Assembly: GCF_004331955.1 (NCBI RefSeq)
Contig: NZ_CP036532.1
Span: 1,364,001-1,428,000 of the forward strand
Direction: 5' to 3'
DNA: 64,000 nt
From: Roseitalea porphyridii
Lineage (GTDB): Bacteria; Pseudomonadota; Alphaproteobacteria; Rhizobiales; Rhizobiaceae
Shown piece by piece: positions 29,517 to 33,446 of this stretch. Position 1 is the stretch's first letter, and the number at the start of each line of letters is the position of its first letter. Made by a program: the position numbers and the translations under genes. The notes under the pieces are model-generated. The model was not told the origin of the DNA. It saw nothing but the letters and a program-made list of their open reading frames with translations, and ran no database searches.

Positions 29517-32500
29517 CTACCCGGCTCCGTAGCCGCCTGGTGTCGGCGTCGTGACGATCACCGCTTCGCCCGCCTTCACCGAGGTCTGGTCCGCGTGCCT
29601 GAGCTCTTCGAGCGTGCCATCGAGGCGCCTGATCTCGGTCTTGCCGAGCTGCCCGTCGCCGCCGCCATCGAGCCCCTTGGGCGGCACAGTGCGATGCGAG
29701 GAGACGATGGCGCACTCCATGTCCTCGAGAAAGCGCAGTACGCGCCGTGTGCCGTCGCCGCCCCGGCAGGCGCCGCCGCCGCCCGAGCCGCGGCGGATCG
29801 AGAACTCCTCGACGACGATCGGATAGCGCATCTCGAGCACTTCGGGATCGGTCATCCGCGTGTTGGTCATGTGCGTGTGGACACCCGAGGCGCCGGCGAA
29901 CGGCCGGCCATCGTTCATCACGCCCGCCGGCGCGCCCGAGCAGATCGTCTCGTAATTCTGGTGGCGGGCATTGCCGTAGGTCAGGTTGTTCATCGTGCCC
30001 TGCGCGTTGGCGACCGCGCCAAGCGCCTGCAGCAGGCAGTTCGTGACGTGCTGGCTGGTCTCGGTGTTGCCGGCGACGACGGCGGCCGGATAGGCCGGCT
30101 TGAGCATCGAGCCGTCCTCGATGACGATGTTGATCGGCTTAAGACACCCCGCATTCATCGGGATCGGCCCTTCCACCATCAGCCGGAACACATAAAGCAC
30201 GGCGGCGCGGGCGACCGGCTCGGGCGCGTTGAAATTGTTCTTCTCGACCGGCGAGGTGCCGGTGAAGTCGACGGTCGCCTCGCGCTTGTTACGGTCGACC
30301 GAGATGCGCACCTTGATCTGCTGGCCGGTATCGGTCGGATAGGTCGCCTCGCAATCGCTCAGCCGGTCGATCACGCGGCGCACGCTTTCCTCGGCATTGT
30401 CCTGCACGTGCCGCATATAGGCTTCGACGACCGGCAGGGTGAAATGGCCGACCATCTTGCGCAGTTCGGCGACGCCCTTCTCGTTGGCCGCCACCTGAGC
30501 GACGATGTCGGCAAGGTTTTGCCTGGGATTGCGCGCCGGGTAACGATGATCTGTCATCAGGTCGAGAAAGGCGTCCTCGCGCAGCGTGCCCTCGTCGACC
30601 AGCTTGAAATTGTCGATCAGCACGCCTTCCTCGTCCACATGGGTGGCGCGCGGCGTCGCCGAGCCCGGCGCCATGCCGCCGACATCGGCATGGTGCCCGC
30701 GCGAGGCGACGAAGAAGAGGATGCGCGGAGTTTCTCCCTCCCCCTTGAGGGGAGGGTGGACCGGCGCATCAGCGCCGGGACGGGTGGGGGGGTCGGGTTC
30801 GGCGCCGGGTCCCCCACCCCGCTGCTGCGCTTCGCTTGCAGCGACCCTCCCCTCAAGGGGGAGGGAGGCTGCCCCCTCCCTGAACACCGGCGTCACCACC
30901 GTGATGTCCGGAAGGTGCGTGCCGCCATTATAGGGCGCGTTGAGCGCGAACACGTCGCCGGGCTTCATGTCCGGGTTCTGGCGGATGATCGATTCCACCG
31001 ACCGGTCCATCGAGCCAAGATGCACCGGCATGTGCGGCGCGTTGGCGACCAGCGCGCCGGTGGCATCGAACACCGCGCAGGAGAAATCCAGCCGCTCCTT
31101 GATGTTGACCGACGAGGCTGTGTTGGCGAGCGTCACGCCCATCTGCTCGGCGATCGACATGAAAAGGTTGTTGAACACTTCGAGCATGACCGGGTCGGCC
31201 TTGGTGCCGATCGGCGCGACGGCCGGCCGCGCCGCGATCCGGCGCATCACCACCGTGTCGCGCATCGTCACCTGCGCTTCCCAGCCCGGCTCGACGATGA
31301 TGGTCTGGTTTTCCTCGACCAGGATCGCCGGACCGGCCACACGCGCGCCCGGTCCCACCTTGCCCTGATCGCGACGGTAGACGCCCGCCTCCCGCCATTG
31401 GCCGCCCGAGAACATCCGGCTCGTGCGGGCGGGTTCCGGGCGGTGCTCGGGGGCGTCCTGCGCTTCGAGGGGAGGGGTGTTGTCGGTCGAATCCTCGCCC
31501 TCGAGCCCCACCGCCTCGACCACCAGCGCGCGCCCCGGCGTAATGAAGCCGAACTGTGCCTTGTGCGCGGCCTCGAACGCGGCGCGCGCCGCTTCCATGT
31601 CCGCGCCGTCATAGGGAACCTCGAGCGCCGTATCGGTGCCGTCATAGCGGATATGCAGGCTCGCGCGGGTTTCGATCGCATCGCTGGCGACGCCCTGCGA
31701 TTGCAGCTCTTCCTCAACCTCTTCCCGCAAGCGATTCAGAAGACTCCGGATTTCCGCCTTCGTGCCGTCTTCAAGTGGTTTGACAAGTGCGTGCTGTCTT
31801 GACGCGAAGGTCTTCGACAGCCCGATCCCGTACGCCGACAGTAGGCCCGACAGCGGATGGATCAGCACCGCGTCCATCCCCAGCGCATCGGCGACCAGGC
31901 ACGCATGCTGCCCGCCGGCGCCGCCGAAACAGTTCAGCGCATACTCGGTCACGTCGTAGCCGCGCTGCACCGAGATCTTCTTGATCGCATTGGCCATGTT
32001 CTCGACGGCGATGGTCAGGAAGCCCTCGGCCACTTCCTCGGGAGAGCGCCCGTCGCCGATCGTTTCGGCCATCTCGGCGAACCTCTCGCGCACGATATCG
32101 GCGTCGAGCGGCTCGTCCCGCCCCGGCCCGAAGATCGCCGGAAAGAAGGCCGGATCGAGCTTTCCGGTCATAACGTTTGCGTCGGTGACGGTCAGCGGCC
32201 CGCCGCGCCGGTAGCAGGCCGGCCCCGGATTGGCACCGGCGCTGGCCGGTCCGGCCTGGAAGCGCTTGTCCTCATATTTCAGGATCGAGCCCCCGCCGGC
32301 GGCGACCGTGTGGATGTCCATCATCGGCGCGCGAATGCGCACGCCGGCCACCTCTGTCTCGAAGGCGCGCTCGTAGTCGCCGGCGAAATGGGCGACGTCG
32401 GTGGACGTGCCGCCCATGTCGAAGCCGATCACCTGATCGAACCCCTCGGCGCGCGCGGTCTCGATCATGCCGACGACACCGCCGGCCGGGCCCGACAGGA

Positions 32501-33446
32501 TCGCGTCCTTGCCCTGGAAGGTCTCCGCCGCGGTCAACCCGCCTGAGGACATCATGAATTGCAGGCGGGTTCCCGGCTGCCCCTCATCCGACCCCTCGCT
32601 TTGCTCGGGCCCACCTTCTCCCCGCGTGCGGGGAGAAGGGGAGGTGCTGACGTTTGCCTCCTCGACCAGCCGATCGGGAGCAGAAGCCGAGGTCTCCCTC
32701 TCCCCGCCCAGGCGGGGAGAGGGTGAGGGTGAGGGGCTATCGACGCCGATCCCCAGTTCATCCGCCACCTGTTCGACATAGCGGCGCAGGATCGGCGACA
32801 GGTAGGCATCGACCACCGTCGTGTCGCCGCGTCCGACGAGTTTGGCGAGCGGCGATACCTCGTGGCTGACGGAAACCTGCGCAAAGCCCATCTGGCGCGC
32901 GAGCTCGGCGGCCGCCCGTTCGTGCGCCGGATGCGCCCAAGCGTGCATGAAGGCGATGGCGACCGCATCGATACCCGCTTCGCGCGCCGCCGTCAGGCCG
33001 GGCCGCAGCCATTCGGGATCGAGCGCGTGTTCGACCGTGCCATCGGCCAGCACGCGCTCGGGCACCTCGATCACGTGCTCATAGAGCTGTTCGGGCAGCA
33101 CGATCTGCTTGGCGAAGATGTCCGGGCGGGCCTGGTAGGCGATGCGCAGCGCATCGCCGAACCCGCGCGTGATGAGAAGAAGCGTCCGGTCGCCCTTGCG
33201 TTCGAGCAGCGCGTTGGTCGCGACCGTGGTGCCCATCCGCACTGTGCGCACCAGGCCAGGCGGCAGCGGCGCGCCCTGCTCGAGCTTCAGAAGATCGCGA
33301 ATCCCCTGCACCGCCGCGTCGCGATAGGCCTCGGGGTTCTCGGACAGAAGCTTGTGTGCGTGCAGCGCGCCGCCCGGATCGCGGCCGATCACGTCGGTGA
33401 AGGTGCCGCCCCGGTCGATCCAGAAATCCCACTGCCCGTTCGTCAT
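29517..33446 (-). CDS. Fused HyuA-HyuB hydantoinase / 5-oxoprolinase with two in-frame repeat insertions
   Basis: 1309 residues. The N-terminal half is HyuA-like with the ATPase phosphate loops ([14 protein letters not shown], then MSSGGLT and [18 protein letters not shown]); the C-terminal half is HyuB-like, ending in the [18 protein letters not shown] and [10 protein letters not shown] segments. Fused enzymes split 5-oxoproline or hydantoins with ATP. Usual fused length is about 1200; the excess comes from two palindromic elements at 32579-32737 and 30734-30867 that are translated here as foreign Pro/Gly/Glu-rich stretches (about residues 237-290 and 860-904). Neither shifts the frame. AAGGGAG precedes the ATG at 33446. 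It could still be functional because both inserts lie in linker-like regions. Confidence 0.93.
30734..30867. repeat. Palindromic repeat element inside the HyuB half (in-frame insertion)
   Basis: A 24-base terminal arm (30734-30757, beginning CTCCCTCCCCC) is the exact reverse complement of 30844-30867. Between them lies an inner hairpin CCGGCGC-ATCA-GCGCCGG (30761-30778) and a GGGTGGGGG/CCCCCACCC pair. Dispersed elements of this look occur in intergenic DNA of many Rhizobiales. Here one lies inside a coding region without breaking the frame, and encodes the [17 protein letters not shown] and PPLKGEGE segments. Confidence 0.85.
32579..32737. repeat. Two-hairpin palindromic repeat element inside the HyuA half (in-frame insertion)
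   Basis: Outer ends GCCCCTCA (32579-32586) and TGAGGGGC (32730-32737) are inverted repeats. Inside are two tandem hairpins of one type: CCTTCTCCCCGC/GCGGGGAGAAGG (32614-32625, 32628-32639) and CCCTCTCCCCGCC/GGCGGGGAGAGGG (32696-32708, 32711-32723). Length between the outer ends is 159 bases, exactly 53 codons, which keeps the frame. It encodes [12 protein letters not shown] and [12 protein letters not shown] segments. It is of the REP/BIME kind. Confidence 0.85.

Follow-up and report, generated by a model that had tools for sequence, protein, structure and literature searches.

How does a palindromic DNA repeat come to lie in the reading frame of a conserved enzyme gene, and what becomes of it there? 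The question is raised by a 64,000-nucleotide stretch of the Roseitalea porphyridii genome (the window), in which an earlier sequence-only reading had drawn attention to an element inside a hydantoinase/oxoprolinase gene. Inserts of this kind are already known, since in-frame palindromic elements are described from Rickettsia and Wolbachia (cited in PMC2229807 and PMC10969869), and since a 2013 survey in BMC Genomics recorded intragenic GTAG/CGTC REPs in DNA-repair genes and several tRNA synthetases of other bacteria (PMC3733652). In that survey the uvrB gene of R. conorii is interrupted twice by intragenic elements, and two Xanthomonas have different REPs at roughly one and the same place in recB (PMC3733652). 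A literature search, incomplete in its coverage, turned up no report of such inserts in proteins of Rhizobiales. The new part of what we report is the turnover of several repeat families at the same sites.

Results

A composite palindromic repeat in the reading frame of HyuAB

The host gene (Table 1) starts with TTG, or with ATG two codons on; its nearest named homologue is from Oricola, and 7hk5/9h03 and 6yra are its relatives in the PDB. Pfam places Hydant_A_N at residues 10-188, Hydantoinase_A at 291-548, Hydant_A_C at 566-728 and Hydantoinase_B at 902-1310; because the first two of these lie on either side of element 1, the element separates them. The sequence-only reading had placed the element in frame in the HyuA half, which the single minus-strand ORF and the surrounding Pfam domains bear out; its coordinates, its length and its 8-bp inverted ends, GCCCCTCA/TGAGGGGC, had been given exactly, and its residues, put at about 237-290, only slightly off. 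The predicted peptide is Ser-Pro/Gly-Glu-rich.

The element contains two hairpins, one with perfect 12-bp arms (32614-32625/32628-32639) and one with 16-bp arms at 94% (32693-32708/32711-32726). Relative to shuffled sequences it folds with a z of -5.61 as DNA and -4.88 as RNA, and none of 200 shuffles was equally stable. Both hairpins are real, as had been claimed, but they are tandem hairpins of one type only in a loose sense, because they belong to two distinct outward-facing units, a and b, each of which occurs separately elsewhere. The further genomic copies that had been expected are present, with 56 matches at E<=1e-3 in the window genome (G000, one contig of 3.54 Mb; here genomes are numbered G and loci L). 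Single copies of unit a lie at 2008058, 2791051, 2616943, 1747409, 3072264 and 2379689, and unit b is found mostly as inverted pairs, for example at 2932642-2932792 and 2612640-2612793, where the composite is built like element 1; both units are also seen singly or combined in other ways. Several copies of this family, family A, are intergenic in the window genome, and the family is read in both orientations, one in HyuA and the other in IleRS and UvrB. Family A matched 173 plasmid records, in which every tallied genus was of Rhizobiaceae type, and no annotated gene lies beneath most of the best 25 places listed. CGTC-tagged REP-like palindromes (CGTCATTCCGGGG...) are also seen near family A copies (L002 and L016, both of the window genome). 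A relative of element 1 occupies positions 1501-1618 of L255 (Sinorhizobium meliloti pSymB), between the fdhF and NuoF genes; it adjoins the counterpart of the gene that carries a copy in the window genome.

The HyuB half of the same ORF contains element 2, which belongs to another palindrome family. Its inverted ends are 24 bp long and perfect (30734-30757/30844-30867), its terminal sequences are TCCCTCCCC/GGGGAGGGA, its fold has a z of -9.49 against shuffles, and it has 12 matches in the genome, one of them within glyS. Across the window, the tested families occur at two places only, both within the HyuAB ORF; the remaining matches (E 0.008, 16-21 bases) look like chance.

Table 1. Features of the HyuAB locus (window positions) and in-frame inserts elsewhere in the genome (genome positions).
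Feature	Position	Strand	Basis or remark
Host gene, fused HyuA-HyuB, 1311 aa	29517-33452	minus	One unbroken ORF, 5-oxoprolinase/N-methylhydantoinase type (Pfam, PDB relatives)
Element 1 (family A), 159 bp, two outward-facing palindromic units	32579-32737	minus	Predicted residues ~239-291
Unit a of element 1, 61 bp (query 1-61)	32579-32639	plus	Repeat comparison within genome
Spacer between units a and b	32640-32682	plus	Varies among copies, not conserved
Unit b of element 1, ~55 bp (query ~105-159)	32683-32737	plus	Repeat comparison within genome
Element 2 (family C/D), 132 bp, in-frame palindrome, HyuB half	30735-30866	minus	Predicted residues 863-906, ending VHPPLKGEG
IleRS insert, in frame	463081-463222		TIGR00392 above its cut-off
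GlyS (glycyl-tRNA synthetase beta), three in-frame inserts			TIGR00211
UvrB, two in-frame inserts			PRK05298
CobN, two adjacent elements of two families, in frame			TIGR02257
FdhA (formate dehydrogenase alpha subunit), probable in-frame insert	940517-940621		TIGR01591, domain positions only

The HyuAB sites are empty or differently filled in sister species

In G002 (L037), a species of the same genus, the HyuA site is empty and reads ATC GGC GCC GAC AAG GCC GAA ACC CGC, whereas the window reads ATC GGC GTC GAT A[159 bp]AG CCG GGA ACC CGC. Removal of exactly 159 bp from the window restores the AAG codon of G002; to judge from this single comparison, element 1 was inserted with no base lost, gained or duplicated. 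The site is likewise empty in G001, and the same loop in G004 and G003 holds inserts of two other families (SPLVGEMSPQATEGG... and FPLKGGRQSERSEAKPGGG...PPRKGEG). The concern that relatives might encode the same residues in unrelated DNA is thus answered, as two sister species lack the element and two carry other palindromes. Element 2 is common to the window genome and G004 and absent from G001 and G002, and G003 has another family at that site. A low-complexity expansion or an assembly artefact, with no repeat insertion at all, would accommodate the Ser-Pro/Gly-Glu-rich sequence, yet its probability is close to nil given the dispersed DNA copies, the palindromic fold, the empty sites, the single contig and the similar inserts in independent assemblies.

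AlphaFold models of the two HyuAB halves have a mean pLDDT of 81-82, and the structure flanking the inserts is confidently predicted. The pLDDT falls below 50 over model residues 238-288 for element 1, between a helix (202-229) and a strand (293-297), and likewise for element 2 between HyuB strands 104-112 and 166-175 (model numbering). Both inserts are therefore predicted by the models to be disordered, one in an inter-domain linker and one in a β-turn. In the solved relative 7hk5 the insert points correspond to chain residues 230-240 and 810-813, which are short connections.

In-frame inserts recur in other conserved genes

Among the copies that were examined individually, about eight further elements beyond the two of HyuAB lie in other conserved genes, namely IleRS, GlyS, UvrB, CobN and probably FdhA (Table 1). 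The sequence-only reading was thus right about an in-frame element and understated the scale, having missed these and element 2. The host genes, whose dN/dS against same-genus orthologues is 0.11-0.28, are still under purifying selection. All five species of the genus carry one of the UvrB inserts, which sits some ten residues ahead of the Walker A motif GVTGSGKT; this site is empty in the other genera examined, save for an unrelated long insert in L236. GlyS site 591 falls between tRNA_synt_2f and DALR. The five intragenic elements whose ends could be delimited are 126-159 bp long and all are multiples of 3; five of six measured composites elsewhere in the genome are not. Each copy leaves two to five of its six frames open, so that in-frame survival is feasible for such GC-rich DNA.

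Hairpin inserts that are bypassed by the ribosome are known in some mitochondria, and the strong hairpins found here would suit a related idea, namely that the insert is removed after transcription as an intervening sequence or skipped by translational bypass, giving a protein without it. The intragenic copies stay in frame without stops, and a skipped sequence would need neither, which makes this explanation very improbable.

Several other copies were set aside. The copies at 1290287-1290494 (FAD-binding protein) lie upstream of the likely start, and the copy at 1983317 lies at the extreme N-terminus of an aminotransferase ORF; none of these was counted. Those at 2565535, 1036158, 3072256, 2540397, 1331996, 2211089, 376110 and 2008058 fall within long ORFs that have no Pfam match, which we take as spurious GC-rich frames. 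As further observations, IleRS of two other genera (G006/L162 and G024/L174) has palindrome-like inserts at the IleRS site of the window genome and a second common insert site at core 338, and ileS of G003 is split over contigs C38 and C4 near residue 380, where the assembly possibly broke at another repeat.

The same sites are occupied by different repeat families

Across five genes in five species of the genus, repeat-type inserts occupy only nine positions, all found first from the window genome and hence ascertained on it. At six of the nine (HyuA, HyuB, GlyS 309, GlyS 417, UvrB A and CobN) different species carry different families, and other species are empty at these sites. A uniform chance model of this coincidence would mislead, since the greater part of any protein is unable to accommodate an insert.

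Over the window protein and 109 homologues, long inserts likewise cluster at few positions: the HyuA linker, the HyuB start and, rarely, two others. Beyond the genus, the two main sites hold repeat-like inserts in Mesorhizobium (L062, L063, L090), in Aminobacter (L066), in bins of Pseudolabrys (L096) and of Xanthobacteraceae (L128), and in several other genera; many of these inserts match further loci at the DNA level. On a tree of 74 of the proteins, built from columns filled in >=90% of rows, we counted at least 13 state changes at the HyuA site and at least 10 at the HyuB site, using family labels (A-E) that are our own and were assigned from motifs. The HyuB site of L036 and L097 (Bauldia bin) contains tandem SAEGATGK repeats with no palindrome, another kind of repeat in the same loop.

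Such recurrence need not mean that the loops were hit independently. Each site could have held an ancestral palindrome that was later inserted into, recombined or replaced, as would fit the different families at six of nine sites, the two families side by side in CobN of the window genome, the half-elements in L042, L045 and L046, and the sequence DAPR in HyuB of G001, a possible deletion scar. Against this, the HyuA site in G002 and most Hyphomicrobiales is an ordinary short loop with no remnant, and permissive loops alone suffice for recurrence; we regard a history of swapping as somewhat unlikely, though the likeliest of the alternatives.

Elements may also move between species. The four-gene tree was (G003,(WIN,(G001,(G002,G004)))), where WIN is the window genome and two of the inner branches have only 90-91% support. 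Between the window genome and G003, the third-position difference is 10% over 275 codons around UvrB site B versus 29% elsewhere, and 16% at GlyS 591 versus 32% elsewhere; the tract limits were set after viewing the profile, so the p-values of these tracts are exploratory. The comparison with G002 has a weaker dip, and those with G001 and G004 have none. The pattern at the two sites is apparently that expected of homologous recombination carrying an element with its flanks from one species to another.

CobN behaves differently. The element common to G002 (L252) and G003 (L251) differs at 5 of 129 positions (3.9%), compared with 52 of 300 (~17%) in the adjoining 100 codons, and is thus more conserved than neutral filler should be. 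A repeat that is simply tolerated does not explain this contrast, which is compatible with a recent insertion in parallel, with conversion confined to the element, or with selection. If the inserts were under selection, whether as linkers in the protein or as mRNA hairpins that aid folding by slowing ribosomes where domains meet, one would also understand their very stable folds and the location of some sites at domain boundaries (the HyuA linker, GlyS 591). However, close relatives are empty at most sites or carry other families with unrelated peptides, and the HyuB element, 14.4% diverged between the window genome and G004, is not specially conserved. Selection for the inserts is accordingly an unlikely general account.

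Comparison with known palindromic elements

The closest counterparts are the Rickettsia palindromic elements (RPEs) and those of Wolbachia, which are dispersed palindromes of ~100-160 bp in several families, lying in frame in conserved genes (PMC3733652, PMC2229807, PMC10969869). The elements here share a stable fold (z of -5.6/-4.9 for the 159-bp element and -9.5 for the 132-bp element) and in-frame positions in several unrelated genes (HyuAB, IleRS, GlyS, UvrB, CobN and probably FdhA). The comparison with Rickettsia, already made in the sequence-only reading, holds for anatomy and location. These elements differ in being GC-rich, outward-facing composites of Hyphomicrobiales, and in that a single protein site holds different families across sister species. 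Intragenic GTAG/CGTC REPs are similar, as they are palindromes that lie in frame within genes for DNA repair and for tRNA synthetases; the elements here are longer and end in GCCCCTCA or TCCC-type repeats, with no GTAG/CGTC tetranucleotide at the foot of the palindrome, where GCCCCTCA/TGAGGGGC and TCCCTCCCC/GGGGAGGGA stand instead. A search for Y1 transposases (PF01797) found none in G000-G004 and a single match among 13 genomes, in G024. As these five genomes of the genus lack the enzyme and the elements lack the tag, we rejected mobilisation of the RAYT/REP type.

Rhizobial RIME, Sm-repeat and ABC palindromes resemble these elements in host range, as family A matches Rhizobiaceae-type plasmids, but RIMEs are described as intergenic (PMC2573895); this comparison with RIME1/2 is by description. 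MITEs such as Correia and ERIC are likewise small and non-autonomous with inverted ends (8 bp in element 1, 24-bp arms in element 2), and some form in-frame fusions (PMC2229807). They differ in that the elements here have no identified partner transposase and no target-site duplication, either at the empty site of G002 or, by eye, at the flanks of intergenic composites.

Discussion

We consider it probable (roughly 0.85) that these are RPE-like selfish repeats which are translated, are tolerated in permissive loops and turn over by insertion, loss and recombination between species. A copy of a dispersed palindromic repeat would have inserted precisely into the hydantoinase gene in the lineage of the window genome, without target duplication and presumably through some enzyme; that no mobilising enzyme was identified counts against this reading. 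The frame was kept because the length is 3 x 53 and there are no stops. The element is then most likely translated as a disordered 53-residue loop, whose peptide we take to be nearly neutral and which the enzyme would tolerate owing to the loop's position in the linker that joins the first two HyuA domains. Insertions at most other places would be removed by selection, so that the survivors mark few permissive loops in few proteins, and these loops would be occupied repeatedly by different families. Alleles with or without an element would pass from one species to another through homologous recombination, or disappear by deletion.

A more speculative thought, which we hold to be rather unlikely, is that the few loops are true landing pads, at which an existing palindrome attracts another or is exchanged for it. 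If so, unrelated selfish palindromes would succeed one another at fixed codons in essential enzymes, a turnover of cassettes inside coding sequence over the evolution of a genus.

In-frame palindromes have until now been mainly a Rickettsia curiosity. Here a clade of Hyphomicrobiales, presumably free-living to judge from its named relatives, has them in UvrB, in tRNA synthetases and in enzymes of metabolism, and at the same codon sister species are empty or hold another family. Such sets are matched natural experiments on the effect of a 40-60-residue insert on an enzyme. They would provide a map of the loops in which conserved, even essential, proteins can accommodate 40-60 foreign residues, and would make it possible to follow coding palindromes as they are gained, lost and exchanged.
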